23,461 nucleotides of DNA, from positions 1-23,461 of the forward strand of contig JAHENP010000156.1 of the NCBI GenBank assembly GCA_018609965.1, in the 5' to 3' direction. The notes below the pieces were generated by a model. The model was not told where the DNA came from, did not search any database, and was given only the letters and a program-made list of their open reading frames with translations. The DNA is from Haloferacaceae archaeon (GTDB lineage: Archaea > Halobacteriota > Halobacteria > Halobacteriales > Haloferacaceae). Both the position numbers and the translations under genes were made by a program. The stretch's first letter is position 1, and each line of letters begins with the position of its first letter. Positions 4,029 through 23,461 of the stretch are shown here, piece by piece.

Positions 4029-4205
4029 ATGGCAACCAGTGACAGGCCGGCAGTGGGCGTGGACCACCCGACGGTCGTCCCGACGAATCTGGGGGAGTCA
4101 GACGACGCAGGCGCTGGTGCAGACGCAGATGCCAGTGTAGGCGCAGATTCCAGTGCAGACACAGACGCCAGTGCAGGCGCAGACGGCGCGACCGGCACAG
4201 AGTGA
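4029..4205 (+). CDS. possible small acidic protein (58 aa)
   Basis: A short open frame with ATG at 4029 encodes MATSDRPAVGVDHPTVVPTN and then an Ala/Asp/Gly/Ser tail (about 25-58) made from a near-repeat of GAD/SAD units. The first 25 residues look like normal protein, and the tail is extremely acidic, as haloarchaeal low-complexity tails are. A TTATG element at 3980-3985 could be a weak promoter giving a leader of about 20 nt. I recognise no family. It may be real, a decayed gene, or chance coding in a repeat-rich gap between ppa and the rhomboid gene; the repeat-derived composition lowers confidence. Confidence 0.35.
   Translation: MATSDRPAVGVDHPTVVPTNLGESDDAGAGADADASVGADSSADTDASAGADGATGTE
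4098..4195 (+). repeat. low-complexity GCAGAC/GCCAGT tandem-like repeat
   Basis: Hexameric units of the type GCAGAC, GCAGAT, GCCAGT and GTAGGC recur across about 100 nt. In the +1 frame of the small ORF at 4029 they encode an Ala-Asp-Ser-Gly repeat. This is consistent with replication slippage; no regulatory role is visible. Confidence 0.6.
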
Positions 4206-4243
4206 CCGGCGGTTGGGTCGTCCTCACCGCGCGCAGGGGAGCC

Positions 4244-4256
4244 GAAAGGATATACC
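4244..4256 (+). promoter_or_regulatory. archaeal BRE/TATA-like promoter of the rhomboid gene
   Basis: CGAAAGGATATACC has a purine-rich BRE-like part followed by a TATA-like part (GATATACC) centred about 27 nt before the ATG at 4279. That spacing puts transcription start at or next to the ATG, so the mRNA is probably leaderless, and it supports the chosen start. Confidence 0.55.
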
Positions 4257-4278
4257 GACCGCGAGACAACTGCGTGTA

Positions 4279-5232: not shown

Positions 5233-5233
5233 C

Positions 5234-6037
5234 GTGGTCGAGCTCGCGCGGCCGCGGTTCCGGCCGGACCCGACGGCCGACCGCGAGGCGATGGAGCAGC
5301 TCCAACACGAACTCGCAGAGACGGCCGTCTTCGCGGACCAGTTCGGTTTCGACCCCGGGGCTGTCGGCGGATCGGCGGACAGTACGGACACGGAAGCCGA
5401 GAGTGACCCACCGCTCGTCGCGGGTGTCGATCAGGCGTTTCTCGACGACCGAGCGGTCTCGGCGGTCGTCGTCTCACGCGGCAGCGAGGTGATCGAGCGC
5501 ACCCACGCAGTCACGGCGACGCGGCTGCCGTACGTGCCGGGACTGCTCTCCTTCCGCGAGGGGAACCCAATCTTCGCCGCGCTGGCGACGTTGGAGACCG
5601 ATCCCGACGTCTACGTGATCGACGGGAGCGGCCGGCTCCACTACCGCCAGGCCGGGCTGGCGACACACGTCGGCGTTGCGGTCGACGCGCCCACGATCGG
5701 CGTCGCAAAGAGCCTGCTGTGTGGGACGCTTGACGCGGACCCGGACGGGCGACCGGCGGGGTGGCGCACGCCGATCCGCGCAGACGCCGAAGTCGACGCC
5801 TCCGACGGCACCGTGATCGGGGCGGCGCTCCAGACCCGGCAGTACGACGAACGCCCGGTGATCAACCCGGTGTACGTCAGCCCCGGCCACCGGGTGAGCG
5901 CGGCGACGGCGACGGATCTGGTCGAACGGCTGTGTGACGGCTACAAACTGCCGGAGCCGACACGACGCGCGGACAGTCACGCCGAGACGGCGAAGTCCCG
6001 GGTCGACGACTCTGGAGCAGGCAGCGACGGCGGGTGA
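5234..6037 (+). CDS. nfi: endonuclease V (deoxyinosine 3' endonuclease)
   Basis: A 267-residue endonuclease V, which nicks DNA one nucleotide 3' of deoxyinosine to start repair of deaminated adenine. The catalytic set fits the Thermotoga enzyme's D43/E89/D110/H116 well: D66 in VAGVDQAF, E109 in PGLLSFREG, D130 in VIDGSG and H136 six residues later. Other conserved blocks are YVPG, AGLATHVGV and PTIGVAKSLL. The usual DGHG is DGSG here, which I recall as common in haloarchaea. An acidic Ser/Thr insert occupies about residues 42-60. The GTG at 5234 was chosen because it lies 1 nt after the rhomboid stop and gives the expected N-terminal length; an ATG at 5291 would lose part of the first helix. 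Confidence 0.93.
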   Translation: MVELARPRFRPDPTADREAMEQLQHELAETAVFADQFGFDPGAVGGSADSTDTEAESDPPLVAGVDQAFLDDRAVSAVVVSRGSEVIERTHAVTATRLPYVPGLLSFREGNPIFAALATLETDPDVYVIDGSGRLHYRQAGLATHVGVAVDAPTIGVAKSLLCGTLDADPDGRPAGWRTPIRADAEVDASDGTVIGAALQTRQYDERPVINPVYVSPGHRVSAATATDLVERLCDGYKLPEPTRRADSHAETAKSRVDDSGAGSDGG

Positions 6038-6047
6038 GCCTCGGAGG

Positions 6048-6677
6048 CTACAGTACGACACTGTCGCGCCCAGACACCGACTGCGGGACAGAGATACGGG
6101 CGACAGTTTGGCTGCCGTCCGGGGTGACAAACGTCACTGAGACGGCGTCGCCGGGTTCGACGACGGCGTCCGTCCCGAAGCTCCCCACGCGGACAACGAC
6201 CGCGATCCGGTCGGACCCGGCGTTGACGATTGGTGCGGAGCCGTCGTTGTCCTGTTCGACGACGTAGGCGAACTCAGAGCCGTCGATGCTCGCCGGGTTG
6301 TCGGGGTCGCCAGCAGCCGTCAGCTGGTAGGAGCCGTCCGGCCCGGCCCAGACGACGAGCGTCTCGTCGATGGCGAGCCGTTGGCCCGACCCACCGACCG
6401 TGAGGATGAACCGGACGCGGTCGACGCCCGTGGTGCCGTCGACGGTCGTGACGTTGCCGGTCGTCGCCACCACCGACACCTCGCCGGTGAGCTGTTCACG
6501 CACCGCCTCGCCGGTCTCCTCGGACTGACCCTGGAACACCTGTGAGACGTTGAGGAACACACCCGCGGCGATGGCGGCGATCAACAGCAACGCGATCAAC
6601 AGGATCAGCGTTCCGACGCCAGCCTGTGCGCGTTGACGCTCGGACCGGCTCTGTCCCCCCCGCGTCGTGTCCCCCAT
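6048..6677 (-). CDS. archaellin-like (type IV pilin-type) surface filament protein
   Basis: A 209-residue protein with an archaellin/type III signal: a basic leader ending RQRAQAG, then VGTLILLIALLLIAAIAAGV. The leader should be cut after Gly by the prepilin peptidase (PibD/FlaK), and the hydrophobic helix would pack in the filament core. The outer domain has archaellin hallmarks, including VRFILTVGGSG, LVVWAGPDGSYQL, and the C-terminal pattern VPQSVSGRDSVVL seen in FlaA/FlaB proteins. No other archaellum genes (flaCDE-J) are visible, so it is a lone copy, perhaps a minor archaellin or a filament of another type. The ATG at 6677 gives a 25-residue leader; the frame is open upstream but only antisense to the next gene. 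It is divergent from the gene at 6784. Confidence 0.85.
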   Translation of the reverse strand: MGDTTRGGQSRSERQRAQAGVGTLILLIALLLIAAIAAGVFLNVSQVFQGQSEETGEAVREQLTGEVSVVATTGNVTTVDGTTGVDRVRFILTVGGSGQRLAIDETLVVWAGPDGSYQLTAAGDPDNPASIDGSEFAYVVEQDNDGSAPIVNAGSDRIAVVVRVGSFGTDAVVEPGDAVSVTFVTPDGSQTVARISVPQSVSGRDSVVL

Positions 6678-9876: not shown

Positions 9877-10305
9877 CTAATTGAACGGGTTGACCGCCGC
9901 GGGCAGTCGAGTCAACCCGTCGACAGCGTCGAAGTCGTCGTCAAACGAGTACAGGAATTCGATGCCCGTTCGTCGTGCGTACGCGGCGAGGCTAGCGTCG
10001 ACGAAAGAGAGTTGCTCGTACTGTCGATAGATTATCCGGGTCGTCTCGAAGTCTTTCTTCGAAATTTGACAGATCTCGAAGTGAAGACCCTCTGTGAATC
10101 TGTCGAGAAGTTGGGTGCCAACGTCCGCACCAAGACGCTCAGTACAGAGGGTTACAGTTTCTGCGAGCACGTAATCGACAATAACAGCTCCTGGAAGCTG
10201 TCCACGGTCGATCCCACTGATGATCTCTCGTGCGGTGTCGTGGTGTGTATCACGAGCACTGGCGGCGGCGAACAGAACGTTCGTGTCCAACAGGACTGCC
10301 GGCAT
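9877..10305 (-). CDS. PIN-domain ribonuclease toxin (VapC-like)
   Basis: A 142-residue PIN-domain protein. The first acidic residue is D7 in AVLLDTNVLFAA, a second is the Glu of DYVLAETVTLC (about 49), a third is the Asp of LSFVDASLAAYARR, and the last are in YSFDDDFDAVDG. This is the four-acid site that binds divalent metal in PIN nucleases such as VapC, which cleave tRNA or other RNA. The ATG at 10305 shares one base with the antitoxin's TGA; a GTG one codon upstream (10308) is also possible. It is the second gene of the pair, as expected for a toxin. The target RNA cannot be told from the sequence. Confidence 0.88.
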   Translation of the reverse strand: MPAVLLDTNVLFAAASARDTHHDTAREIISGIDRGQLPGAVIVDYVLAETVTLCTERLGADVGTQLLDRFTEGLHFEICQISKKDFETTRIIYRQYEQLSFVDASLAAYARRTGIEFLYSFDDDFDAVDGLTRLPAAVNPFN

Positions 10306-10547
10306 CACTCGGAGCCGAACTCACGTTCCACTTCGACGGCGTCTGTCTCGCCGGCGTCAACGGGTTCGAAGTCGTCGAATACACCCTCACGCTGTTGCAC
10401 CACTTCGAGTGAAACTGTTCCGGACTCGTCGGCACTCCATCGGAGCACATCGCCTGGCTCAATACCGAGCCGGTCTCGGAGCGGCGACGGGAGTGTTACC
10501 ACACCGTCGCTACCGACCTCTGTTTTGACAGAGTGTCCTGTCGCCAT
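10305..10547 (-). CDS. AbrB/MazE-type antitoxin
   Basis: An 80-residue protein with an N-terminal swapped-hairpin (SpoVT/AbrB) DNA-binding domain: VGSDGVVTLPSPLRDRLG, then IEPGDVLRWSADESGTVSLEV. The C-terminal 30 residues (VFDDFEPVDAG and an acidic end) would be the toxin-binding arm. It lies directly upstream of the PIN gene with a one-base overlap, so it should both neutralise the toxin and repress the pair's own promoter. On the minus strand, ACACATACCA (10571-10580) is a candidate TATA element about 28 nt before the start. Archaeal VapB proteins of this AbrB class are well known. Confidence 0.88.
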   Translation of the reverse strand: MATGHSVKTEVGSDGVVTLPSPLRDRLGIEPGDVLRWSADESGTVSLEVVQQREGVFDDFEPVDAGETDAVEVEREFGSE

Positions 10548-10701: not shown

Positions 10702-11622
10702 CTACTCCACGTACTCCGAGCAGACCCGTTCGATCCCGGCTTCGAGGTCGATCTCGGGCTCCCAGCCGGTCGCCTCGTGGAACCGCGAGTAGTCCGCGAG
10801 CGTGTCGTGGACGTACACGTCCTCCGGAATCGGGTTCTCGACGAACGCCGGCTCTACGTCGGTACCCAGTTGTGTGTTGATCAGGTCGACGACGTGCAGG
10901 AAGCTGTGTTGCTCGCCGGTGCCGACGTTGTAGACTCCTTGGAGTTCGTGGTCGGCCGCGAGCGCGGTCGCGCGCACCACGTCGTCAACGTGTGTGAAAT
11001 CGCGGGTCTGTTCGCCGTCGCCGTACAACTCCGGCTGGTCGCCGTTCGCCATGTCCTCGGCAAACTGTGCGATCACGTTGGCGTACTCGCCTTTGTGGCC
11101 CTCGCTGCCGCCGTACCCCTGGTAGACGGAGAAGTACCGCAGGCCGGCCAGCGTCATGTCGTGGAAGTTGTGGAAGTACTCCGCGTACCGCTCGCGGGCG
11201 AGCTTCGAGGCCTCGTAGCCCGTGTTCGCCTCGACGGCCATCGTCTCCGGTGACGGCTCCGTCCGGTTGCCGTAGATCGAGGAGGTGGTCGCGTAGACGA
11301 CCGTCTCACAGCCGTCGTGGCGTGCCTGTTCGACCGTGTTGACGAACCCCTCGACGTTGACCCGTGCGCCGCGTGCGGGGTCCTCCTCGTGCATCGCGTA
11401 CGAGGACAGCGCCGCGAGGTGGAACAACACGTCGACATCCGTCGGGAGGTCGTCGTCCGTGACGCTCGCCTCGACGTACTCGACATCGTCGTGGAGGTTC
11501 TCCGGCGTGCCGAGGTAGCCGTCGTCGACGACGGTGACCTGGTTGGCTTCGGCGAGGCTGTTCGCGAGGTTCGAGCCGATGAAGCCGGCTCCGCCCGTGA
11601 CGAGAACACGGTTGCCCTTCAT
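10702..11622 (-). CDS. NAD-dependent nucleotide-sugar epimerase/dehydratase
   Basis: A 306-residue extended SDR enzyme. The N-terminus NRVLVTGGAGFIGSNLA has the GxxGxxG Rossmann motif (G10, G13, G16). TTSSIYG (112-118) provides the Ser, and YEASK (136-140) the catalytic YxxxK. This is the layout of UDP-glucose 4-epimerase and related UDP-GlcNAc or dTDP-glucose enzymes. It should interconvert or dehydrate a nucleotide sugar for glycan assembly; the exact sugar cannot be told. It sits just before the glycan island on the minus strand, between the toxin-antitoxin pair and the island. The ATG at 11622 gives the normal start for the family; an in-frame ATG at 11673 would add 17 residues without family resemblance. 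GATTACAAC (11647-11656, minus) may be its TATA element. Confidence 0.9.
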   Translation of the reverse strand: MKGNRVLVTGGAGFIGSNLANSLAEANQVTVVDDGYLGTPENLHDDVEYVEASVTDDDLPTDVDVLFHLAALSSYAMHEEDPARGARVNVEGFVNTVEQARHDGCETVVYATTSSIYGNRTEPSPETMAVEANTGYEASKLARERYAEYFHNFHDMTLAGLRYFSVYQGYGGSEGHKGEYANVIAQFAEDMANGDQPELYGDGEQTRDFTHVDDVVRATALAADHELQGVYNVGTGEQHSFLHVVDLINTQLGTDVEPAFVENPIPEDVYVHDTLADYSRFHEATGWEPEIDLEAGIERVCSEYVE

Positions 11623-11972
11623 ACAATGTGATGTATACTCCTCTGAGTTGTAATCTCCGATATGTCGTACCACCCCGGCCGGGACGAGTATCCTTCCCGG
11701 TTACCACGTCTCTATCTCACCGTCTATGGGCCCTTCGTCTGCCTGTGTTGATACCACCTTCATTACAACCTTGATCGACGAAGCCGCCCAACGTCCGGCT
11801 GGTGGTCGAGACTATACAATAGTGAGATACCGCCGTTAGGTACGTACCGATCGTCGTGACCGGGGAGCGTCGGGCTGGTGAACAGGACGACATGCATTAG
11901 AATCCAACATTCTAGTGAAGACTAAATTATATTCAAATATAGCATTATATACTTGTAGAGTAAGCAGAGAGA
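11623..11972. other. 350-nt AT-richer intergenic region
   Basis: No convincing gene is seen. The part near 11623-11660 holds the likely promoter of the epimerase. Around 11898-11914 there is a small inverted repeat, TAGAAT then CCAAC then ATTCTA, and the stretch 11915-11955 is strongly A/T-rich, which is unusual in this window. It lies downstream of the minus-strand gene ending at 11973 and could act as its terminator, but no clear T-tract follows the hairpin on that strand. Confidence 0.5.
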
Positions 11973-12530
11973 TCATCCAAATCGGTTGATAATAGCTGCA
12001 CCGAGCCTTTCGGGGCGTAATACGGTTGATCCTGGTGCTCCGTCCCGAATCCACAGGACAGTGGTGGCGACGAACAACGCGACGCCGACCAGCGTTCGGG
12101 GTCCGACCTCCGCGGTGGCGACGTGTGCGGAGACGCTACCGGCCGTCTTGTACTCGACACGCCGACCTAACGGCCACAGGAGGAATCGGAGGAACCGCGG
12201 CTGGACCGTGAGGAGCGGGAACCACGCGTCCCCGAATATCCCGCCGGCGTAGCCGGCCGTGAAGCCAACCCAGTGGGCACGTCGACCGACGGCCGTTGCG
12301 AGGATACCGACGAGGACGACCACCGGCGACGCCACGAGCAGCGAGTGTGCTAGCGATCGACCTGTCGGGAGGATACCGAACTGCCACGCGAGCGGCTTGT
12401 CCACGAGGTCGGGGAGTTGCGTCCCGACCGCGAGCGCGACGACCGGACCGCCACGGAGCGGCGTGTCGGTGCCCCACGTGTACACTCTGTAGAGGAGGTA
12501 CCCGACGGCTGCGTGTCCCCACGGCCACAT
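11973..12530 (-). CDS. YdjM/DUF457-like membrane-bound metal-dependent hydrolase
   Basis: A 185-residue polytopic protein with about four or five membrane segments. The motifs GHAAVGYLLYRVY near the start, GTQLPDLVDKPLAW at about 37-50, and SLAHSLLVA at about 58-66 are the conserved His/Asp cluster of the YdjM/DUF457 family (predicted inner-membrane metal-dependent hydrolases). The substrate is unknown for the family as a whole. The length is typical. The ATG at 12530 has a TATA element (CTTATTTTCT, minus strand, 12551-12560) centred about 26 nt upstream and a GGAGGT directly before it, so the start is well supported and the message is likely leaderless. It is divergent from the STT3-like gene; the two may share control, but a glycan role for it is only contextual. 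Confidence 0.85.
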   Translation of the reverse strand: MWPWGHAAVGYLLYRVYTWGTDTPLRGGPVVALAVGTQLPDLVDKPLAWQFGILPTGRSLAHSLLVASPVVVLVGILATAVGRRAHWVGFTAGYAGGIFGDAWFPLLTVQPRFLRFLLWPLGRRVEYKTAGSVSAHVATAEVGPRTLVGVALFVATTVLWIRDGAPGSTVLRPERLGAAIINRFG

Positions 12531-12550
12531 ACCTCCACAGACGGGGCTGT

Positions 12551-12660: not shown

Positions 12661-15579
12661 GTGACAGACCTCGGTGAAACGGTCGCCGACATCGCCGACG
12701 ACAAACAGTTGGCCGCGGCACTCGCGGCGGTGCTTGACGCAGACCGCGGCGAGGTGTGGGAGTTCGACGACGTTCCCATCGACAGCGGTGAGTTCGGTGA
12801 ACTTGTCGATCGCGGAGTGATCGTTTCGGTGGATGGTGGCTACCGACTGGCTGACCCAGAGGTAGTTGCGACGACACTCGACGGCGAGGCGGTCACAGAC
12901 GACACCGAGTCCGGCGGTATCGACTTCGGGTCCCTCACCGTCCCGGTCTCGACGCAGGCACTCACGCTGCTGTGCGGGGCACTGCTCCTCGTGGTTCTCG
13001 CTCGGACCGTGCCGGCCGCTGGCAGTGTCTTCCGGGACGGCGCGGTAGTTCTCTCGGGGAACGACCCGTACTACTACCGCACGCTCGTCGACCAGTTGCT
13101 TGTGGCCGACGAGCCGTCGACGACCGGTGCGTGGGCACGGGTCTCCGGCGATGACTTCCTGTTCGTGGTGACGTTGTGGGCCGCGAGTTCGCTCGTCGGC
13201 TCGTCCGGCGGTGTCTTCGCAGTGTACCCTGTGGTGATGGCTGTCGTCTCGACGACGTTCGTGTACGGGACGACGGTGACGGTTGCCGGCGACAGACGGG
13301 TCGGACTCGCCGCGGTGACGCTGCTGGCGTTCGTCCCGGTCCACGCGTTCCGCACCTCACTCGGGTTCGCTGATCACCACTCTTTTGACTACCTCGCGCT
13401 GGCGGCGACACTGTACGGGTTGGTCGTCCTCCTCACCCGCGACCGTGCGCGGTTCGGCGGTCGGTCGGTCACCGCCGGCCTCGTGCTCGCGGCCGGTGTG
13501 ACTGTCCAGGCGCTCGCGTGGCGCGGAGGTCCACTGTACCTCCTCCCGCTAGCGGTCGTAATTCCGGTCGTCGCTGCCCTCGACCTGCAGGCGGAACGGG
13601 ACCCAGTCCGGCCAGCCGTTCTGGCTGCGTTCGGCGGCGCGGCGGCGTGTACCGCCGTCGTGGCGACTGTGTTGGGGTTGCAGACGTATCGGTGGCTCGT
13701 GGTGGCGTTGGTGGCCGCCGGAGCCGGTCTGACCGCCGGCGTCGCTCGCGTGGTCGCCGCACGCGACCACGGCTGGTGGGTGTTCCCCGCCGTCGTCGGT
13801 GGCACCATCGCCGTCGTCGGGCTCGGAGTGGTCCTGGCCGTCCCGTCGGTGACGGAGACGCTGGGTGCCGCCGAGGCGTACTTCGGGTCGACGACGGGCT
13901 CCAGCATCGCCGAGACGCGGTCGCTGTTCGCCGCCGGTACGGGAGTGATCGTCACTCCACTCCTCTTTTTTGGGTTGGTGTTTCCGCTCCTGCTGGGGAC
14001 AGTCGTGTGGGCAGCAGAAATCGCCCGACAGACCCACGACCCCGGCGTGGCGGTGGTCGCGACGTACACGCTGGTGTTTCTCGCGTTCGCCGCGGTGCAA
14101 GTGCGGTTCAGTGGGCCGTTGGCAGTCGTCGCCGCACCGCTTGTCGGCTACGGTTTCCTTCTGCTGGCGGCGTGGACCGATATGGTCGCCGAGTCGCCGG
14201 GCCACCACATGGTGACCGACAGCAGGCGGCTGCCGTCGGTGTCGCTGCCAGACAGACAGACCGCCTCGGCGCTCCTGCTGTTGTTCCTCCTCGTTAGTGG
14301 ACTGGGGATGGTCCAGACGTGGGTAAAGATCGAACAGGTGACCATCGAGGACGATATCTACCAGACGGCCGTCGAGACGCGGGCCTACGCCGACGAGAAC
14401 GGAATCGACGACTCGTACGTCCTCAGCGAGTGGGGGCGCAACCGGGTGTACAATTACGTCGTCGGTGGGGAGGGTATGGGCTTCGGGTACGCCAGAGAGG
14501 TGCACACCAGGTTCGTCCGTTCGACCGACCCCGGCCGGTGGGCCGACCAGCTCTCCGGCCAAGTGCGGTTCGTCGTCACCGGGTCGGTCGACAGTGGCGA
14601 CCGCACAATGCACGCACGACTCCACGACAACCACGGGAGCGACGCTGACGGGAGAGCCGGGCTGGGTCGGTACCGACTCGTCTCCGTCGCGGACGGCGGC
14701 GGCCGGAAGGTGTTCGAGTTCGTCCCCGGCGCGCTCGTGACCGGTGTTGGACCGTCAAACGAGACTGTCGTCGTCACGCGAAACGTAACTGTCTCAGGGA
14801 GGACTGTCACGTATCGCCGGGTCGTCGAAACCAATCGGTACGGCGACTACAGCGTCCGACTTCCGTACACTGGATCGTACGATGTCTTCGGGCAGACTTC
14901 GACGGTCGAACGTACCGCTGTATTGAACGGTGACACGGTCGGACGACACCGGGCACACATTACGTTCGACGACGGGCAACTCCGGGAGGTGTTTCACGAC
15001 GACCCAGGTCGTGTCTCTGGGGCGGCAACCGTCGCAGGCGTCGCTGGTGACGCACTCCGGTTCGACGGCAACGATGATGCGCGTGTCGAGAACGTCTCGT
15101 ACCTCAACCGGGGCGACTCCTTCACCGTTGTCTTGTGGGCTCGGGGGCTCGAAGGCGGGGAATCTGAAGGATACGGTACGTTGGTTTCAAAGACCGCAGA
15201 CTCCGGTGGCCGGTACCAACTGATGGAGAAGGCTCGCAGCGACACCATCGGTGTCCGACTCGTAGACACGGATGGCCAGTCGGTAGCAGTGTACGGCGTG
15301 GCATCGCCAGACGAAGGCAACTGGACGCAGGTCGCGGCAGTCGTCGACCGATCGGCAGGTGAACTCCGCCTGTACGCCGACGGAACGCTCGTCGGGGTGG
15401 AGTCGATCGCCGACCTCGACCGAGTGCTTGGCCCTGGACCGCTCCAGTTTGGGACCCGGAACGGCAACACTCGACTCACCGGAACTGTCGACGAGTTCCG
15501 GCTGTACGACGGTGTCGTGACTGCCGAAGAGCTACAGAGAAAGTACAAAAACATCAGTTCGTCCGAGCCTCGTCGGTGA
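12661..15579 (+). CDS. STT3/AglB-like membrane protein with C-terminal LamG domain, WWDYG motif replaced
   Basis: A 972-residue protein related to archaeal oligosaccharyltransferase AglB/STT3 (GT-C fold), which transfers lipid-linked glycan to Asn on the outer face of the membrane. Residues 1 to about 95 form a soluble N-terminal domain; then come about 12-13 membrane segments. STT3-like signatures are NDPYYYR (134-140, DxD-type loop), GFADHH (about 235-240) and SSIAE (414-418, TIxE-type). The soluble domain's expected WWDYG is replaced by SEWGRNR (589-595). After it come an Ig-like stretch and a LamG/concanavalin-type domain, about 763-960, with FDDGQL and TLVGVES/FRLYDGVVT. I recall similar paralogues in haloarchaeal glycan clusters. 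Whether it is catalytic is open. The GTG start is set by the TATA spacing. Confidence 0.85.
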   Translation: MTDLGETVADIADDKQLAAALAAVLDADRGEVWEFDDVPIDSGEFGELVDRGVIVSVDGGYRLADPEVVATTLDGEAVTDDTESGGIDFGSLTVPVSTQALTLLCGALLLVVLARTVPAAGSVFRDGAVVLSGNDPYYYRTLVDQLLVADEPSTTGAWARVSGDDFLFVVTLWAASSLVGSSGGVFAVYPVVMAVVSTTFVYGTTVTVAGDRRVGLAAVTLLAFVPVHAFRTSLGFADHHSFDYLALAATLYGLVVLLTRDRARFGGRSVTAGLVLAAGVTVQALAWRGGPLYLLPLAVVIPVVAALDLQAERDPVRPAVLAAFGGAAACTAVVATVLGLQTYRWLVVALVAAGAGLTAGVARVVAARDHGWWVFPAVVGGTIAVVGLGVVLAVPSVTETLGAAEAYFGSTTGSSIAETRSLFAAGTGVIVTPLLFFGLVFPLLLGTVVWAAEIARQTHDPGVAVVATYTLVFLAFAAVQVRFSGPLAVVAAPLVGYGFLLLAAWTDMVAESPGHHMVTDSRRLPSVSLPDRQTASALLLLFLLVSGLGMVQTWVKIEQVTIEDDIYQTAVETRAYADENGIDDSYVLSEWGRNRVYNYVVGGEGMGFGYAREVHTRFVRSTDPGRWADQLSGQVRFVVTGSVDSGDRTMHARLHDNHGSDADGRAGLGRYRLVSVADGGGRKVFEFVPGALVTGVGPSNETVVVTRNVTVSGRTVTYRRVVETNRYGDYSVRLPYTGSYDVFGQTSTVERTAVLNGDTVGRHRAHITFDDGQLREVFHDDPGRVSGAATVAGVAGDALRFDGNDDARVENVSYLNRGDSFTVVLWARGLEGGESEGYGTLVSKTADSGGRYQLMEKARSDTIGVRLVDTDGQSVAVYGVASPDEGNWTQVAAVVDRSAGELRLYADGTLVGVESIADLDRVLGPGPLQFGTRNGNTRLTGTVDEFRLYDGVVTAEELQRKYKNISSSEPRR

Positions 15580-15901: not shown

Positions 15902-17374
15902 ATGGAAAGAGAACGTCGAATCACACGGAACGCCCTCGTCACCTTCTTATCTAGCGTCGGTAACAGGGGAGTCAGTCTCGTCGGATCGATACTCTTCGCA
16001 CGTTTCGCCGGTGAGTCGGCTCTGGGGTCGTTCTTCGCATTCATGTCTGCCTACCGCCTCCTCAGCATCACGACATCACTGGGGATCGGTCAGGCACTGA
16101 TCAAACGACTCTCTGAGACGCCGGTCGGTTCCGAACAACGTCGTGATCGAGAGATACTCGGAGCCGCACTGTTGATCCTGTCTACGATCACCGTCGGTGT
16201 CGTGGGCCTGTTGTTCCTCGTTGGTCCGCAGTTCGACGCATACATCGGTGTCGAAGGGGCCGTCGTCGCAATGGCTCTCTTTTTGTCGATAATGGTCGTC
16301 TACAGTACCTACAGGCAGACGATTGCCGGGTCTCACCGGGTCGGTCTCGCGTCACTCACGGACACCGTTCGCAACACGGCGGTCGTGGTCGCACAACTCG
16401 GCCTGATACTCCTCGGGTTCGACGCTGCCGGGCTTGTCGGCGGTGTCGTCGCCGGCTCTGCGTTCGCCGCGGTCGCAGCGTTCCTGTTGAGTCCGACGAA
16501 TATCCCTGCCAGACCCGGTCGTGAACAGATACGGTCTCTCGTTCAGTTCGGGAAGTTCTCGTATCTCGACTCGTTCTTCGGCACTCGGGACCGGTGGTAC
16601 GACATACTCGTCCTCAAGTGGTTCGTCGCCGATGGTCCGGTCGGTGTGTACGGCGTGTTGAATGGACTGTCTCAGTTCGGATTCACCCTCTCTTCGTCTA
16701 TCGGGAAGACACTGTACCCGGAAGTCAGTAATATCGACGAACAGAGCAACCTCGATCCGGCAACTCTCTCCCCCGTATTCAGATACACGACCATCATCTC
16801 GGTCCCGTTGTTGTTCGGTGCAGTGACGGTCGGCGACCTCATCTTACAGACGGTCTACGCGTTCGAGTACGGCACTACGACACTCGTCTTGTTGTCCGTG
16901 GGTTCCATCGCGTTCAGCCTGTACGAGCCGATCCACCAGATACTCTACGGATTGGACGACCCGGAGAGGGCGTTCAAGATCAGCTCCACGACGACCGGTC
17001 TGAACGTCGCTCTGTTACTTCTCTTGGTACCGCCGTACGGGATACTTGGAGCCGCCGTCGCGACGGCCACTGCGATGACGGCCTCGTTTCTGTTCGGCGT
17101 CCGTGTACTGAAGCAGACTCTTCCGTCGGTGGAGATCTTCCAGTGGCACCACTGGTCCCGACAACTGGCGAGTAGTCTGGTGATGTCTGTCGTCGTCTTG
17201 TTCGGTCGAGAGGAACTCACGTCCGGACAGAGTCTCCCGGTGACACTGGGCCTCGTACTGCTTGGCGCGATAGTGTACGGTCTTACGCTGGTGGCCATCG
17301 ACGAGACCCTCCGGACGTGGATTCGGTCGACGTTGGACGATATCGGAGACCGAAATGCCAAAGAGCGTGGTTGA
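15902..17374 (+). CDS. oligosaccharide flippase (Wzx/AglR-like, MATE/MOP superfamily)
   Basis: A 490-residue polytopic protein with about 12-14 membrane segments. The N-terminus RNALVTFLSSVGNRGVSLVG leading to LFARFAGESALGSFFAF is the typical start of Wzx/RfbX-like polysaccharide flippases, and GVYGVLNGLSQFGFTLSSSI and GLDDPERAF with polar residues within helices fit the family. It should move a lipid-linked oligosaccharide across the membrane, in this window probably the glycan handled by the STT3-like protein. The phosphodiesterase-like gene follows after 15 nt, so it is the first gene of a four-gene run. The ATG at 15902 gives the expected start; no strong ribosome site is visible. The sequence here is less GC-rich than the left half of the window. 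Confidence 0.9.
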   Translation: MERERRITRNALVTFLSSVGNRGVSLVGSILFARFAGESALGSFFAFMSAYRLLSITTSLGIGQALIKRLSETPVGSEQRRDREILGAALLILSTITVGVVGLLFLVGPQFDAYIGVEGAVVAMALFLSIMVVYSTYRQTIAGSHRVGLASLTDTVRNTAVVVAQLGLILLGFDAAGLVGGVVAGSAFAAVAAFLLSPTNIPARPGREQIRSLVQFGKFSYLDSFFGTRDRWYDILVLKWFVADGPVGVYGVLNGLSQFGFTLSSSIGKTLYPEVSNIDEQSNLDPATLSPVFRYTTIISVPLLFGAVTVGDLILQTVYAFEYGTTTLVLLSVGSIAFSLYEPIHQILYGLDDPERAFKISSTTTGLNVALLLLLVPPYGILGAAVATATAMTASFLFGVRVLKQTLPSVEIFQWHHWSRQLASSLVMSVVVLFGREELTSGQSLPVTLGLVLLGAIVYGLTLVAIDETLRTWIRSTLDDIGDRNAKERG

Positions 17375-17389
17375 TTACGGTCTTGGTAC

Positions 17390-18934
17390 ATGGTACAGAC
17401 AGTTATCATCGGGTTCGACGGTGCGACCTTCGATGTCGTCGACGACATCGAGGCGAGGATGCCGAACCTCTCCTCTCTGATGGCGGACGGTTACCACGCC
17501 GATCTATCGAGTACCGATCCACCGTTCACGTCTGTCGCGTGGCCGGCGTTTGTGACCGGTCAGAACCCAGGCCGGTTCGGACTGTTCGACTTTATCGGTC
17601 ACGATCCCGGGACCTCAGATTTCTATCTCAACGACACGAGGAAGAAAGACTTCGAATACTTCTGGGACTACATCCGAGAGGGCATCGGGTTGGCGTCGAT
17701 TCCGATGGTGCCGTACAACGACAACTGCTCGTTCTTCGTTCAAGGAAGTCTCGCCCGTGTCAACGAGGATCTCATAACGCAGCCACCAGATTTGGCGGAC
17801 AGGCTCCCGGAGTACTACGACCACCAGTTCGACTGGGAAGACGACAAAGACGAGATCGTCGAATCGGAACTCAGGCGGATAGGTGCACGCGAGGAACTGT
17901 TCTGTGAACTCGTATCGACGTACGACATCCCGCTGTACTTCCTGATGTTTCAAGCGGTCGATCACCTCCAGCACCACTTCTGGGCGTTCATGGACGAGGA
18001 ACACGAGGCGCACCGTCCGTCCGACTACGCCGACGCGATTCCACGACTGTACGAGCGTGTAGACGAAGCCATCGGACGAATACTCGACTGCTTCGACGAG
18101 CCAGTGAACGTCGTGGTAGCGAGTGACCACGGGTTCACGGGCGTCGATGTCGAAGTCGACTTGGACAACTTTCTCGCCGCGAACGGGTACACGGCCTCGG
18201 ACACGAGTATCGAGTCAGTGAGTACTTCTCTGGGGATGAAACTGAAGAAGTTGGCCGACGGCTCCGTGTTGGAGTATCTCGTCCCAGGTTGGCTCAAACG
18301 CCGCGTATCTAGTCAGCTTCCCGACGAGAGTGATATGGCAGATCAGTTAGACTGGGAACAGACCGAGGTGTACCGTTTCGGTGCGTCTCCCGGCATGTAC
18401 ATCAACCTCGAGGGGCGACAGCAGAACGGGATCGTCCCCGAGTCGGAATTCTCGAAACTGAAGAACAGATTGGCCGACGACCTCCGTGCTCTCCGTGGTC
18501 CCGACGGAGAGGAACTGATAGAGTTTGTCGCCGACAAGGACGACGTGTACGAGGGCTACTACGTCGACCACGCTCCGGACTTGGTCGTTCGTGGAGCAGG
18601 AGGAGTCAGACTGTGGGCCGGTCTCGACAAGGGTCAGACAGTCGCTCGTTCCGAGCGCGCGATGCCGAACTCCGGGATGCACGCACAGGACGGTATTCTC
18701 GTCGCTAGCGGTCCCGATTTCCGAGATGTCGAGGCTCGTGGGACGGCGGACATCATCGACGTCGCACCGACACTCTTGAACGCTCTCGGTTACGGGGCAC
18801 CAGAACAGATGGACGGCGAAGCGATCACCGGAGCACTCGACAATCCGTCGTCGACGGTGTCGAAACCTGTGCGGTCGGAACGCACCCGTATCAAGAATCG
18901 AGTGCTCTCGCTGCGACAGCTTCAGGAGGTGTAG
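17390..18934 (+). CDS. type I phosphodiesterase / alkaline-phosphatase-fold enzyme
   Basis: A 514-residue protein of the alkaline phosphatase superfamily, phosphodiesterase/nucleotide pyrophosphatase branch. GFDGATFD (8-15) gives the first metal Asp, and DPPFTSVAWPAFVTGQNPG contains the likely nucleophile Thr47 (Ser48 next to it). Later come QAVDHLQHHFW, VVASDHGFTG (metal Asp-His) and GMHAQDGILVASGP. The fold hydrolyses or transfers phosphate esters. In glycan loci such proteins are often annotated only as alkaline phosphatase family; here it could cut a lipid-phosphate carrier or attach a phospho group to the glycan (inference). No signal peptide or membrane helix is seen, so it looks cytoplasmic. 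It lies 15 nt after the flippase and 2 nt before the FemAB-like gene. Confidence 0.88.
   Translation: MVQTVIIGFDGATFDVVDDIEARMPNLSSLMADGYHADLSSTDPPFTSVAWPAFVTGQNPGRFGLFDFIGHDPGTSDFYLNDTRKKDFEYFWDYIREGIGLASIPMVPYNDNCSFFVQGSLARVNEDLITQPPDLADRLPEYYDHQFDWEDDKDEIVESELRRIGAREELFCELVSTYDIPLYFLMFQAVDHLQHHFWAFMDEEHEAHRPSDYADAIPRLYERVDEAIGRILDCFDEPVNVVVASDHGFTGVDVEVDLDNFLAANGYTASDTSIESVSTSLGMKLKKLADGSVLEYLVPGWLKRRVSSQLPDESDMADQLDWEQTEVYRFGASPGMYINLEGRQQNGIVPESEFSKLKNRLADDLRALRGPDGEELIEFVADKDDVYEGYYVDHAPDLVVRGAGGVRLWAGLDKGQTVARSERAMPNSGMHAQDGILVASGPDFRDVEARGTADIIDVAPTLLNALGYGAPEQMDGEAITGALDNPSSTVSKPVRSERTRIKNRVLSLRQLQEV
18925..18931 (+). promoter_or_regulatory. Shine-Dalgarno sequence for the FemAB-like gene
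   Basis: GGAGGTG lies 5 nt before the GTG at 18937 and overlaps the end of the preceding reading frame. A strong internal ribosome site in a tight operon decides the start and suggests translation by re-initiation. Confidence 0.7.
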
Positions 18935-18936
18935 CC

Positions 18937-19944
18937 GTGGCATTCGACACACAGGTTCTCCGCAGTATCTCTGACACCAACGCGAACCGGTGGAACAACT
19001 TCGTGAGACAGTCCGACCGCGGAACGATCTACCACACGGTAGACTGGCTCGAAAGCATCGAGACGGCAGCGGACGCCGACCCGAGACACGTCCTCGTCGA
19101 ACAGAACGGCGGGATCGTCGGTGTCTGCCCGAGTTTCCGGACGGAAATGGATCGTGGCCCACTCCACCGCCTGCTGTCGACTCCACACGGGTTGGGTGGA
19201 CCACTGATGTCGAACGACCGGGAGGCTGTTCTCGACGGCATCCTCAACCGTCTCGACAGTTGCGGTACGGCAGGGACGGCCGTGAGTACGTTCCTGATGG
19301 AAGGGGCGAGCGCGCTTTCGTACCGTGCACAGCTCGCGGAGTGCGGCTATCGGGCGGAGTTGTCCGGCAAGTACGTCGTCGAACTCGACAGTTGGGAGGC
19401 TGTTCGGGAGAGACTCTCGAAAGATCGGCGCTACGAACTCCGGAAGGCAACTGACCAGTCTTTCGCCGTCGAAAAGCTACCCGCGGAGCGAACAGTACTG
19501 TCTACGGTCTGTGATCACTACAGAGAGACTGTCGACGAGGGTGGCATCTCACCGGAGTTCCTCCAGACAGTCGCCGAACGAGCCCCCGATTCCTTCCTGA
19601 TCACGACAGCCGTCGTCGACGGGGAGCGGCGTGGCTACCACGTCTACGTGACCGACGACGTGTCCGGTCGTCTGAGACATCTTATCGCTGCTGTCGCTGC
19701 CGAGGACTACGAACACTACCCGTCACAACTCCTTCACCGGCACGGAATGCGTCACGCCATCGACGAGGGCTACGACTACTACGACATGGGTGGAACGGTC
19801 GTCGATCACCGTGACAGCGTCTCGTCCTACAAACGACAGTACGGGGGACGAATCGAGCCAGTGATGACTTTCGAATCTGGCATTTCACCTACCTCGTTGG
19901 TCTACCGCTTTGGGAGATTGTTGCTCGAAGCGAATAGGGAGTAA
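18937..19944 (+). CDS. FemAB / BioF2-like GNAT acyl- or aminoacyltransferase
   Basis: A 335-residue protein with the two-lobe GNAT layout of FemAB/peptidoglycan interpeptide-bridge-type or BioF2-like enzymes. RGTIYHTVDWLESIE near residues 28-42 is the usual N-terminal block, SKDRRYELRKA near 160-170 is the central one, and YDYYDMGGTVVDH with SSYKRQYGG near the C-terminus is the characteristic GNAT-fold ending. These enzymes transfer an acyl or aminoacyl group onto an amino acceptor; in this context an amino sugar of the surface glycan is plausible, but the acceptor cannot be told. The GTG start follows a GGAGGTG ribosome site and comes 2 nt after the previous stop. A methyltransferase starts 7 nt downstream. 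Confidence 0.85.
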   Translation: MAFDTQVLRSISDTNANRWNNFVRQSDRGTIYHTVDWLESIETAADADPRHVLVEQNGGIVGVCPSFRTEMDRGPLHRLLSTPHGLGGPLMSNDREAVLDGILNRLDSCGTAGTAVSTFLMEGASALSYRAQLAECGYRAELSGKYVVELDSWEAVRERLSKDRRYELRKATDQSFAVEKLPAERTVLSTVCDHYRETVDEGGISPEFLQTVAERAPDSFLITTAVVDGERRGYHVYVTDDVSGRLRHLIAAVAAEDYEHYPSQLLHRHGMRHAIDEGYDYYDMGGTVVDHRDSVSSYKRQYGGRIEPVMTFESGISPTSLVYRFGRLLLEANRE

Positions 19945-19951
19945 TTAGTAG

Positions 19952-20686
19952 GTGCCCGCTCACAGCACCACCGTGACCGAGGACATCGAACGCCAGAACC
20001 GCGCATTCTTCGACTCTGACGAGATCATCTCTCGTTACAAGAATGACAAACAACATATAAAACGTGGCGAGAGACGTATCCTGAGCCGTGTCGTCTCGGC
20101 CGACGATCGAGTGCTCGAACTGGGGTGTGGGGAAGGAAGAGTCACCGAGTATCTCCAGCAGCTCTGTGGGTCTCTCACTGCCGTCGACGTGGCTCCCGGG
20201 ATGGTCTCTGCTGCGGCAGAGCGGTCGTTGGAGGCGGAGTTCGGGGTCGCAGACGCCTCGACACTTCCCTTCGAGGACGACACCTTCGATTGTGTCATCT
20301 TCCCGTTCAACGGAATCGACAACGTCTCACCCATCGAGAGACGCCAGCAGACGCTCAGGGAAGTCCGCCGTGTACTCAGACCTGGCGGCCACTTCGTCTA
20401 CACCACCCACAACAAGTTCTGGTTGCCGATCAACCCGCTGAAGTGGTGGTCGTACCTGACGACGCACCTCCTGAACGGAAACGTCTCTCGGCAGTACAGA
20501 GAGACATCCCTCACCGAGGGGAGCGAAGAGTTCACTTTCTACCAGTTCTACGCCGACCCGCGACGCGAACAGCAGCGTCTTCGTGACGCCGGGTTCGACG
20601 TACTGGCTGTCGAAGACGAATCTGACTCTCGCCTCCTGAAGTATATCGAGCCGTGGCTGTACTACGTCTGCCGGTCGCCAGCCTAA
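19952..20686 (+). CDS. class I SAM-dependent methyltransferase
   Basis: A 244-residue methyltransferase. Motif I, VLELGCGEGRV (54-64), binds S-adenosylmethionine. ADASTLPFEDDTFDCVIFPF (about 100-119) holds motifs II/III, and EVRRVLRPGGHFVYTTHNK is the post-motif region typical of the UbiE/Methyltransf_11 group. The substrate is unknown; O-methylation of a glycan sugar is a reasonable guess from its neighbours. It lacks membrane segments. The start is uncertain between the GTG at 19952 (7 nt after the previous stop) and a GTG at 19973; I use the first. It is the last gene of the run and its stop overlaps by 4 nt the convergent beta-propeller gene. Confidence 0.88.
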   Translation: MPAHSTTVTEDIERQNRAFFDSDEIISRYKNDKQHIKRGERRILSRVVSADDRVLELGCGEGRVTEYLQQLCGSLTAVDVAPGMVSAAAERSLEAEFGVADASTLPFEDDTFDCVIFPFNGIDNVSPIERRQQTLREVRRVLRPGGHFVYTTHNKFWLPINPLKWWSYLTTHLLNGNVSRQYRETSLTEGSEEFTFYQFYADPRREQQRLRDAGFDVLAVEDESDSRLLKYIEPWLYYVCRSPA

Positions 20687-21585
20687 GTCGGACGGAACAC
20701 GCCGATACGCCAGTTCCCGTCTGGGCCCTTCCCGTCCGCGACGACGAGACCGTCCGACTCCGACAACGAGGTGTCGAGATGGTGCATCGCCTTCTGTGTC
20801 CACTCGCCGTCTTGACCAGCAGCGACGACCCTCGATGCCGCCGTCTCCGTGTGCGTGTACCCCGACTGTGAGAGCTCCGTCACACGATACGACTGGACGG
20901 CGACCGGCCCGTCGCGCTGCCACTCTTGGAAGAACGTGAACAGTTCGTCGTCGGTCGTCACTGCCGGCCCCGCCGGGCGTTGGGCACGCCGGTCTTTCAA
21001 CACTGGATTGCCGTCGACTGGGTTCCAGTCGCCGGTGAGTTCCCGTGCGTAGTACACTCGCAGCGAGTAGCTAGGCGGCCGGCGACAGAGCCGGTCGACG
21101 GCGTCCCGAGAGAACCAATCGAAGCTCGTGTCGGCACAGAGGAGCCAGAAGTACTCACCGCGACTGACGAGCAGTGGGTCGACCAGCGGCCGACCCGAGA
21201 GTAGCGTCTCGGATCGTTCCCAGACGGTCGGGAAGTCCACAGCCTCGTACAGACGGACAGCCTCTGTGCCCGGTGAGAGCGACGGAATCATGAACCACGA
21301 GCCGTCGTTCCGGAACACTTGTGGAAACGACAGTTGGGTATCGGCTTCGAGGACGACACCGCCGTACGTCCAGTCGATCCCGTCGGAACTCTCTGCGTAC
21401 GCCAAGACGTTCGGTGAGGCACCGGCCTCGAAGAACATGTAGTAGCGACCGTCGACACGAAACACGAACGGATCGGCGACGAAACTACAGTTCTCGACAT
21501 CGGTGACATCTGCTGCGGTCAAGACAGGATTATCGGCGGCAGGGTGTCGTTCTACTCCAGAGAGAATCTTCGTACTGTCGGCCAT
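20683..21585 (-). CDS. five-bladed beta-propeller protein (GH43/GINT1_N-like)
   Basis: A 300-residue protein made of repeated strand units typical of the GH43-like five-bladed propeller, and most like the domain at the N-terminus of glucosamine inositolphosphorylceramide transferase (GINT1_N). Propeller landmarks are VADPFVFRVDGRYYMFFEAG (36-55), SFPQVFRNDGSWFMIPSLSP (86-105), GRPLVDPLLVSRGEYFWLL (131-149) and RPAGPAVTTDDELFTFFQEW (about 203-222). It has no signal peptide, so it probably acts in the cytoplasm on a nucleotide-linked or lipid-linked sugar (inference). Position at the edge of the glycan operon supports a role there. The ATG at 21585 is favoured by an AATTATGC element about 28 nt upstream; an in-frame ATG at 21612 is the alternative. 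Confidence 0.82.
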   Translation of the reverse strand: MADSTKILSGVERHPAADNPVLTAADVTDVENCSFVADPFVFRVDGRYYMFFEAGASPNVLAYAESSDGIDWTYGGVVLEADTQLSFPQVFRNDGSWFMIPSLSPGTEAVRLYEAVDFPTVWERSETLLSGRPLVDPLLVSRGEYFWLLCADTSFDWFSRDAVDRLCRRPPSYSLRVYYARELTGDWNPVDGNPVLKDRRAQRPAGPAVTTDDELFTFFQEWQRDGPVAVQSYRVTELSQSGYTHTETAASRVVAAGQDGEWTQKAMHHLDTSLSESDGLVVADGKGPDGNWRIGVFRPT

Positions 21586-21646
21586 CGTGAAGAGATATCT
21601 GGGTTCCAGCATAATTGCTGTGCTTCCCGATTCGCGTCCACAACAC

Positions 21647-21654
21647 CTATTAGC
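21647..21654 (+). promoter_or_regulatory. TATA-like promoter of the 69-aa gene
   Basis: CTATTAGC is centred about 28 nt before the ATG at 21679, as expected for a leaderless transcript. It lies in the 93-nt divergent gap shared with the propeller gene. Confidence 0.45.
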
Positions 21655-21678
21655 ATCTATCGATACGATCCGAGTAGA

Positions 21679-21888
21679 ATGAAAATCGAAGTCCCAGACG
21701 AACTCCACGGGCGGATCTCGGAACGTGTCGAGGAGACAGAGTTCGATTCTGTCGAGTCGTACGTCACGTTCGTACTCGAAGAGGTCGTCAAACGACGGCC
21801 CGAACTCGAGGACAGTGAGGCGGGGCGAGACGAGGAACGTGAAGAAAAAGTCAGGGACAATCTGCGGTCGCTGGGGTACGTCGAGTAG
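21679..21888 (+). CDS. small ribbon-helix-helix-like protein with GYVE tail
   Basis: A 69-residue, highly charged protein. MKIEVPDELHGRISERVEET has the short strand followed by a helix, and SVESYVTFVLEEVVK the second helix, of a CopG/ribbon-helix-helix-like unit, which often binds DNA. Residues 45-60 are Glu/Arg-rich and the end, VRDNLRSLGYVE, resembles the LRxLGY tail seen at the C-terminus of many sulfatase and alkaline-phosphatase-superfamily proteins. An alkaline-phosphatase-fold gene lies in the same island. I recall similar small haloarchaeal proteins but no known function. It could be a regulator of the island or a partner of the phosphatase (inference). The ATG is supported by the TATA element about 28 nt upstream. 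Confidence 0.72.
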   Translation: MKIEVPDELHGRISERVEETEFDSVESYVTFVLEEVVKRRPELEDSEAGRDEEREEKVRDNLRSLGYVE

Positions 21889-22152
21889 GGTTCTCGAAGG
21901 GCTGGTACACGTGTCCCGAGTGGTACCGCCGGTCTGAAGACCGACAACAGACTCGTACTGACCGGAGACGTTTCCAGAGACTGTACGTGTTCGTCTGTGG
22001 GACCACCGACTGGCTGTCGAGGAAACAGACAGGATCGGAATACTTGTATCGAGGTTGATATCTTCCAGGTGTGAGAAGAGAGTCATTACCAGTAGGAAAC
22101 GCTGAGAGAAATTCGAAGAAATAAAGACGGCGCAAACGGAACAGGTGTAAGG
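21889..22152. other. 264-nt intergenic region with a hairpin and a promoter
   Basis: No gene is seen. CGGTC-TGAA-GACCG (21930-21943) can form a 5-bp hairpin with a 4-nt loop just after the 69-aa gene and may be a terminator, although no T-tract follows. At the right end, GAAATAAAGAC (22118-22128) is a TATA-like element about 30 nt before the ATG at 22153. Confidence 0.45.
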
Positions 22153-23461
22153 ATGAACCGTCGTAGGTTGGATGTATCTCAGAACACACCTTCCGTCCTC
22201 GTCGCCGCCGGTGGTTTTCTCTCGGTCGCCCTCGCCGGAGTCGTCCTGGCGAGTACGTCGACCGCAACCGGCTACGAACTGTCGTTGTACGCAGCGTTAC
22301 CGGCGAGTGTCACGGCACTGTTGATTCTCGGAACGGTCGCCGGCGTCACAAGCGTCATGATCGACCAACGGCACGGTTCGGGAGATGCGTGGTGGATCGG
22401 TGCGGCGTTGATCCTCTTGTCGAACATCGTCATCCTCTCGTTGGGGTTCCTCCGCGGGTACCCGGTCACCGGACACGGAGACGTACTGACCCACCTCGGA
22501 GAGGTACGAAGGCTCGTCGAGACCGGTCACCCCAGCCAGAACAACATCTATCCGGGGTTCCACACGCTTCAGGCGACTTTCGTGGTGATTGGAGGTCTCT
22601 CGATAGAGAGTGTCGGGTACGCTACAACCGTCGTGGCATACGTACTGTACTTGTTGGGGGTCGTGATTCTCGGCTGGAGCTTTCTCGGTCGAAGCGGTGG
22701 AGCCTACGCGGTCGCGGTAACCGCACCGTTCTTGTTCTCCCTCTATCATACTCAGGTGATACCGGCGTTTTTCTCGTTTTATCTGTTTATTTCGGTTTTG
22801 GCACTCGGATTTCATAGAGATATCGATCTGCCGAAACTCGGGTGTGCCTCGCTGTTGTTCACCGGGATCGTCTTCGTCCACCCGGTCACGACCATCGTCG
22901 GTGTCGGATTCTTCGTCTACTTCGCCGTTGCGAGGCAGTTCATCGAGCTGATCGACCGGTACTACCCCTTCCTGACTCCCGCCAGTCGAGAGAGTCTGCC
23001 TGTGTTCACTTCGTTGCTCGTCCCAGCGTTCGCCATAATGCTGTTTGCCGCTTGGTACCTCTCGTTCCCACGGATACTTATCAAATTTCAGGAACTCTCC
23101 ACCGACATCGTCGAGTCAGTAGATCCCTCCAAGGCGGAGGCAGTGCCCCAGACCGAAACCCAGGGAAGGACCGATACGGTGACGCCGAGCGAGACGCCGA
23201 CGACCACACCGACCCCCACAGATACACCCACCAGTACCCCCACAGACACACCTACCAACACCACGACGAACACATCGACCAGTACCCCCACAGACACACC
23301 CACCGACACCCCAACAGATACACCTACCAGTACCCCCACGGACACCCCCACGGATACACCCACCAGTACCCCCACAGACACACCTACCAACACCACGACG
23401 AACACATCGACCAGTACCCCCACAGACACACCCACCGACACCCCAACAGATACACCTACCA
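22153..23461 (+). CDS. GT-C-like polytopic membrane protein with Thr/Pro repeat (partial, runs off the window)
   Basis: An incomplete gene: I translated 436 codons from the ATG at 22153 with no stop before the window end. Residues 1 to about 300 contain about eight or nine membrane segments. The loop after the third or so segment, GHGDVLTHLGEVRRLVETG (about 107-125; D110, H114), resembles the acidic first external loop of GT-C glycosyltransferases and related archaeal membrane proteins. From about residue 340 the protein becomes a Thr/Pro/Asp/Ser repeat (TPTDTPTSTP), with N-glycosylation sequons NTT and NTS (N369, N373, N413, N417). The repeat probably faces the exterior. A TATA-like element at 22118-22128 supports the start. 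Its activity is inferred from fold resemblance only; it may be a glycosyltransferase or another surface protein. Confidence 0.78.
   Translation, partial: MNRRRLDVSQNTPSVLVAAGGFLSVALAGVVLASTSTATGYELSLYAALPASVTALLILGTVAGVTSVMIDQRHGSGDAWWIGAALILLSNIVILSLGFLRGYPVTGHGDVLTHLGEVRRLVETGHPSQNNIYPGFHTLQATFVVIGGLSIESVGYATTVVAYVLYLLGVVILGWSFLGRSGGAYAVAVTAPFLFSLYHTQVIPAFFSFYLFISVLALGFHRDIDLPKLGCASLLFTGIVFVHPVTTIVGVGFFVYFAVARQFIELIDRYYPFLTPASRESLPVFTSLLVPAFAIMLFAAWYLSFPRILIKFQELSTDIVESVDPSKAEAVPQTETQGRTDTVTPSETPTTTPTPTDTPTSTPTDTPTNTTTNTSTSTPTDTPTDTPTDTPTSTPTDTPTDTPTSTPTDTPTNTTTNTSTSTPTDTPTDTPTDTPT
23221..23461 (+). repeat. 132-nt macro-repeat coding for Thr/Pro-rich sequence
   Basis: The sequence from 23353 to the window end (109 nt) is identical to that from 23221, so the period is 132 nt (44 codons) with at least 1.8 copies, and it continues beyond the window. 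Within it are shorter nested units of the ACC CCC ACA GAC ACA type. It encodes TPTDTPT, TSTPT and a TNTTTNTST block. The near-perfect identity points to recent expansion or gene conversion. The frame of the gene at 22153 is kept. Confidence 0.9.

Follow-up and report, generated by a model that had tools for sequence, protein, structure and literature searches.

The window analysed here, a stretch of 23,461 nucleotides (contig JAHENP010000156.1 of assembly GCA_018609965.1) from the metagenome-assembled genome (MAG) of a Haloferacaceae archaeon, encodes a paralogue of the STT3/AglB oligosaccharyltransferases in which the signature WWDYG is replaced by SEWGRNR. We take this protein, at roughly even odds, to be catalytically intact and to belong to a second STT3/AglB subfamily, one specific to haloarchaea, which operates alongside canonical AglB and would transfer glycans from dolichyl pyrophosphate (Dol-PP) to asparagines of the surface-layer (S-layer) glycoprotein without Ser or Thr two residues further on (+2); its activity, donor and acceptor we infer from conserved residues and gene company. 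No paper describing the motif, distribution, gene company or function of the subfamily was found in a literature that lacked most subscription papers, the 2013 and 2020 AglB surveys among them.

STT3-type transferases are known for reading the +2 Ser/Thr through WWDYG and a DK or MI motif; the Ser/Thr pocket of AglB consists of WWDYG and DK, with TIxE holding the sequon backbone, in the account of these motifs given in PMC8342417. As judged from alignments, both halves of that pocket are shown to be absent from the subfamily, and the residues corresponding to the metal-binding and peptide-backbone residues of AglB are kept. WWD occurs in none of the 189 members listed (0/120 and 0/69), the window protein included, as against 120/120 canonical AglBs; the 120 are those listed among 196 relatives, and the further 69 were found with the Halobacterium (Hbt.) salinarum protein as query. 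This confirms the replacement reported in the first-pass annotation, and in either register at WWD at most one Trp is left of the three residues, the Asp not being conserved. The DK motif (DWQM/DYKM…K), with some 80 residues around it, is deleted in the six subfamily rows shown of the MAFFT alignment, an MI-like substitute being structurally possible. In the place of WWDYG stands a new motif, S-x-W-G-x-N-R-x-Y-N, with W591 and R595 each in 119/120 proteins and N598 in all 120; the strict pattern matches 119/120 and 57/69 of the further members, so that some members vary. Alignment with canonical AglB and a search for paralogues turned the one altered gene into something more general, a whole subfamily with a conserved motif, and since the motif is conserved, error or decay of a single gene is ruled out as the cause of the loss.

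The residues kept are nearly invariant. D135, of the first acidic motif, is present in 120/120 subfamily proteins and 19/19 canonical rows; D238 and H239, of the second, are present in 120/120 and H240 in 119/120, at positions where the 19 canonical rows have DHN. The glutamate of external loop 5 (EL5), E418, is kept in 119/120, the Thr of TIxE is not, and R482 of QVRF (502 in P0002 numbering) is invariant in a 42-row alignment. The profile–profile comparison aligned the membrane half only, and for the soluble half the comparison relies on MAFFT and on the fold. With these residues kept and WWDYG and DK lost, binding of donor, metal and peptide backbone would seem still possible for the enzyme, but not the reading of a +2 Ser/Thr in the known way.

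The predicted model has the transmembrane GT-C fold followed by a C-terminal extracellular domain, as in STT3, AglB and PglB (GT66). The curated cut-off of TIGR04154, the archaeosortase-associated AglB family, is 450 bits; the window protein scores 134.5 and the Hbt. salinarum member 141.1. At the C-terminus, the LamG fold claimed in the annotation is borne out by a PF13385 (Laminin_G_3) match above cut-off and by a jellyroll in the model. Its central place in the protein's interpretation does not hold up, because an extension of LamG size occurs in just 23 of the 120 listed proteins (19 of them with a listed PF13385 match), scattered, by eye, over a long-branched FastTree tree used only for separating groups; LamG as the defining feature of the subfamily is ruled out. 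At the other end lies an extra domain whose profile matches (positions 4–91, E 9e-13) the N-terminus of a haloarchaeal EMC3/TMCO1 protein of the Oxa1 superfamily. Among 16 genomes of the class with listed matches in view, 12 have another open frame, of about 300–370 aa, whose N-terminus matches this domain; the one such frame checked with Pfam (L251:614-1501) is the EMC3/TMCO1-like protein. The shared domain may, speculatively, link the enzyme to protein insertion, and such a tie would suit an acceptor site beside the signal-peptide cut.

The subfamily is specific to haloarchaea, and roughly every second haloarchaeal genome in the sample has it. The 292 genomes of the class Halobacteria divide into 156 carriers (best E below 1e-60) and 136 non-carriers, and no best E falls between 8.4e-101 and 6.4e-35. 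At least one carrier occurs in 52 of 77 genera. Every named protein among the 120 listed is haloarchaeal; among 69 genomes from other classes of the phylum, none scores below 1e-30, and the two best matches there still carry WWD, leaving an origin outside haloarchaea without support. Canonical AglB scores above cut-off in 59/59 genomes sampled. The window's own MAG is a case in point: contig C30 bears a canonical AglB with SWWDYGHW and DYKMA, which rules out that the subfamily gene replaces AglB in this genome. Haloferax (genus g7, so named from AglB identity of 73–96% to the Haloferax (Hfx.) volcanii protein) has no carrier among 14 genomes, whether or not Hfx. volcanii is one of them; for that species an unknown transferase is noted in PMC8241124, and the subfamily is not supported as the answer to its AglB-independent pathway. 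A protein from Haloferax sp. Atlit-6N (P0262) is nonetheless a member, possibly by recent transfer.

The subfamily gene is shown to keep different company from aglB, in neighbourhoods of glycan assembly. A single-protein query of the genome contigs returned no relative; the alignment query returned 166. The 80 best of these, all named loci, make up with the window the 81 loci compared, with 'near' meaning within about 10 kb and each neighbour cluster named from one representative. Near the 81 lie polyprenyl glycosylphosphotransferases (42), NAD-epimerases (41), nucleotidyltransferases (30), UDP-sugar dehydrogenases (26) and a DUF4330 protein (15); the glycosylphosphotransferase is found at 8/13 loci of LamG type and 34/68 of the others. 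In bacterial relatives, such glycosylphosphotransferases make the pyrophosphate-linked first sugar.

A paired control compared the flanks, some 8.5 kb either way, of aglB and of the subfamily gene in 20 carriers from among the 59 genomes sampled for AglB, three stretches being shortened by contig ends; five of the 20 are Halorubrum, and the statistics ignore relatedness. No aglB (0/20) has a glycosylphosphotransferase near it, as against 11/20 subfamily genes (p 1.5e-4), and the same direction is seen for epimerase (3 vs 12), nucleotidyltransferase (2 vs 10), GlmS (0 vs 5), DUF4330 (0 vs 6) and the S-layer glycoprotein (0 vs 5, p 0.047). Sulfatase-like proteins (11 vs 1) and Wzx (9 vs 2) go with aglB instead. 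No clear difference was seen for UDP-sugar dehydrogenase (4 vs 2), GT4 (5 vs 4), ABC exporter (1 vs 2), GT2 (0 vs 3) or cluster 15 (2 vs 3). These are thirteen uncorrected tests, of which only those for glycosylphosphotransferase and sulfatase would survive correction. In none of the 20 genomes does the subfamily gene adjoin aglB; the nearest pair (G031) is about 25 kb apart.

A link to the S-layer is seen in Hbt. salinarum DSM 3754. Upstream of its subfamily gene (9980–12301 in L052), at a distance of 3.3 kb, stands the S-layer glycoprotein gene (4124–6664; TIGR04216, 1181 bits); on the downstream side, a glycosylphosphotransferase follows at 4.3 kb. Asn-2 of the S-layer glycoprotein in this species, which in the strain of the 1998 work stands in Asn-Ala-Ser according to that paper's title, is glycosylated even when Ser-4 is exchanged (Zeitler 1998; both as cited in PMC2952790). 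According to that 2010 review, a suitable explanation had yet to be offered and the genome had yielded a single transferase gene; whether AglB handles the Asn-2 repeating-unit glycan is called not clear in PMC6591318; the pathway of the other glycan is described in PMC8674786. The predicted mature N-terminus in the type strain is ANAD: Asn-2 is kept and position 4 is Asp, as expected if the +2 residue does not matter. Nineteen database sequences form a 90%-identity cluster whose representative bears the name Hbt. salinarum and shares 98% identity with the DSM 3754 protein, which suggests that the species as a whole has the gene. A conserved second STT3-type gene beside the S-layer gene offers a concrete candidate for the long-open question of Asn-2.

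Halorubrum (genus g2) gives the second link. Seventeen of its 34 sampled genomes carry the subfamily, and 15 of the 17 have an S-layer match within 10 kb, counting G008, where a C-terminal S-layer fragment stands at a contig end, and G202, whose subfamily gene is divided between two frames; short contigs leave the remaining two (G111, G285) undecided. The split gene (G202:C3:880851-883282), found in this one Halorubrum genome, is possibly a broken copy. The predicted mature S-layer protein has its first Asn within five residues in 16/16 carrier proteins (16 genomes) and in 3/17 proteins from 14 non-carrier genomes; counted by genome, 16/16 against 3/14 (p 7e-6), in a test that used a cleavage rule of our own, on data in part seen beforehand, and ignored relatedness. 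A signal-peptide match was lacking for two of 18 carrier loci, and three of the 17 non-carriers (G198, G206, G249), in which no full S-layer match was seen, were left out. The early Asn lies outside N-x-S/T in 12 of the 16 carriers and inside a sequon in four.

The mechanism that we propose would begin with the neighbouring polyprenyl glycosylphosphotransferase, which would load the first sugar-phosphate, the glycan then being assembled on dolichyl pyrophosphate. The subfamily enzyme would take this glycan and, outside the membrane, attach it to Asn residues of surface proteins, above all of the S-layer glycoprotein, with no requirement for Ser/Thr at +2. The acceptor would be chosen instead by where it lies (in Halobacterium and Halorubrum, close to the mature N-terminus) and perhaps with the help of accessory domains such as LamG; in Hbt. 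salinarum, the subfamily gene would supply the missing enzyme for the Asn-2 repeating-unit glycan. A bolder version we hold only tentatively, and would bet against: the subfamily would be an oligosaccharyltransferase class of its own, found in about half of haloarchaeal genomes, which uses Dol-PP donors to N-glycosylate S-layer proteins at their N-terminal Asn without N-x-S/T and finds that Asn by position, perhaps—given the domain common to Oxa1-type insertase—as the signal peptide is cut. Should some form of this be true, glyco-engineering would gain a useful natural enzyme for attaching glycans where there is no sequon.

Beyond the limits attached to the early-Asn and paired comparisons, several observations weigh against such a role. 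Only 10 of the 80 named loci, a second Halobacterium (L028) included, have within about 10 kb an S-layer-type gene, defined by a product of more than 600 aa that ends in a PGF-type C-terminus; a cluster-based count gave 8/80. The early Asn is present in seven of these 10 S-layer proteins and absent from Halonotius (L016, L032) and Halomicroarcula (L026). Within Halobacteriaceae it does not discriminate, being found in carriers (G018, G067) and in non-carriers (G035, G237 and one of two G222 copies), with the N-termini of carriers G010, G039 and G093 not recovered outside Halorubrum; in G067, moreover, the S-layer genes are about 48 kb from the subfamily gene. An aglB mutant of Hbt. salinarum had archaellins that lost N-glycosylation, as reported in PMC6591318. 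The linkage to S-layer genes and to genes for Dol-PP-glycan synthesis, observed in Hbt. salinarum and Halorubrum, was not seen for the window copy: the 23-kb window holds neither an S-layer gene nor a glycosylphosphotransferase, no glycosylphosphotransferase was found in the MAG (74% complete, 361 contigs), and none of the 13 LamG-type loci has an S-layer gene within about 10 kb. With neither gene in reach, the acceptor of this LamG-bearing copy is the more open.

What else might such an enzyme do? It could be a ligase of STT3 fold that moves the glycan begun by the glycosylphosphotransferase not to Asn but to Thr/Ser of surface proteins, or to a surface polysaccharide or lipid. We consider this unlikely: E418, whose AglB counterpart belongs to the sequon-binding TIxE, is kept in all listed proteins but one, and the partner in Halorubrum and Hbt. 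salinarum is an S-layer gene, in the latter species with a documented orphan glycan that is N-linked. Less likely again, in our judgement, is a second N-glycosyltransferase that still uses N-x-S/T through a rebuilt pocket and serves another donor glycan or growth condition. The replacement motif is itself highly conserved (W591, R595, N598) and could form a new pocket, four of the 16 early Asn do lie in sequons, and more than 30 archaea with several aglB genes, some with WWDXG variations, are on record in PMC5131992; yet the DK motif and the region surrounding it have gone as well as WWD, and the other 12 early Asn lie outside sequons.

The first-pass annotation had offered three roles: a glycan-transfer enzyme with a different acceptor, an inactive partner of canonical AglB, and a glycan-binding receptor. 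The last two, in which the protein is an inactive STT3 relative, draw on the lost hallmark motif and on the lectin-like LamG of some members, and we find them improbable. The acidic and EL5 residues are kept (D135, D238 and H239 in every listed protein, E418 in all but one), the gene is not beside aglB in any of the 20 paired genomes and differs from it in company, and 97 of the 120 proteins have no extension of LamG size. The first role has gained support, since the acidic and EL5 residues are near-invariant, the +2 pocket appears rebuilt, and the glycan-assembly neighbourhoods are unlike those of aglB; an enzyme with relaxed acceptor choice, acting on S-layer Asn, is the reading that we prefer.

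Table 1. Features of the window gene and of its neighbours (positions in the window)
Feature	Position	Strand	Basis or remark
STT3/AglB-like paralogue, SxWGxNR subfamily, LamG-bearing form, 972 aa	12661..15579	+	
N-terminal domain, ~90 aa, predicted cytoplasmic; H-H-H-strand-strand-H, winged-helix-like by eye	12661..12930	+	model secondary structure
First acidic motif NDPYYYR (D135)	13060..13080	+	
Second acidic motif GFADHH (D238, H239, H240)	13363..13380	+	
EL5 TIxE-type motif SSIAE (E418)	13900..13914	+	
QVRF motif, common to canonical AglB	14098..14109	+	alignment
SEWGRNR replacing WWDYG; strand-to-helix junction in model	14425..14445	+	register vs WWD uncertain by 1 residue
AglB_L1 peripheral domain	14728..14874	+	PF18079 E 2.4e-6, 28 bits vs cut-off 23.6
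LamG/concanavalin-like jellyroll	15064..15534	+	PF13385 E 1.4e-19; jellyroll in model
NAD-dependent sugar epimerase/dehydratase	10702..11673	-	PF01370 E 5e-47
Polysaccharide (Wzx/MurJ-type) flippase, downstream	15902..17374	+	PF01943 E 6e-16
Type I phosphodiesterase/alkaline-phosphatase superfamily protein	17390..18934	+	PF01663 E 6.9e-36
FemAB/GNAT-like acyltransferase	18937..19944	+	PF13480, PF02388
SAM methyltransferase	19952..20686	+	PF13649 E 3e-22

Among the neighbours in the window (Table 1), the epimerase/dehydratase belongs to a cluster found near 41 of the 81 loci and the flippase to one found near 13. The product of 17390..18934 is phosphodiesterase/sulfotransferase-like; in the agl cluster of Hbt. 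salinarum, proteins annotated as alkaline-phosphatase-type proved to be sulfotransferases (PMC11980604). A YdjM-like membrane protein stands beside the gene (11973–12539, minus strand), and lookalikes, from clusters 11 and 34, which were not domain-scanned, recur near other subfamily genes. Further along, a GINT1_N domain (glucosamine inositolphosphorylceramide transferase 1, N-terminal; E 3e-35) is encoded at 20683–22086 (minus strand), in what is an archaeal surface-glycan neighbourhood. A PIN-domain/MazE-like pair adjoins the glycan genes at 9877–10547 (minus strand); PIN-like and small DNA-binding-like genes, recognized by eye and not domain-scanned, also lie near the S-layer genes of L080, L081 and L016. 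At the contig end, a short-period repeat (23088–23441) codes for an open frame of GVSVGVLVGV type and may have caused the contig break.

Canonical haloarchaeal AglB (GT66; TIGR04154; for example P0122, on contig C30) has in common with the window protein the GT-C fold, both acidic motifs, the EL5 glutamate, QVRF and AglB_L1. The subfamily differs from it in lacking the WWDYG and DK pocket, in a deletion of some 80 residues in the soluble part, in the extra N-terminal domain and, optionally, in LamG. AglB of Archaeoglobus fulgidus (3waj, 5gmy, 7e9s, 3wak), about 20% identical to the window protein, has, unlike it, a WWDYG and DK that bind the Ser/Thr of the sequon, as set out in PMC8342417. Extra archaeal copies of AglB with changed WWDXG had already been noticed, in the 2013 survey cited in PMC5131992. 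The transferase of the Asn-2 repeating unit in Hbt. salinarum, finally, calls for a Dol-PP donor and a relaxed +2 position, and both would fit the subfamily's glycosylphosphotransferase neighbour and lost pocket; the 2010 review counts one transferase gene only (PMC2952790).

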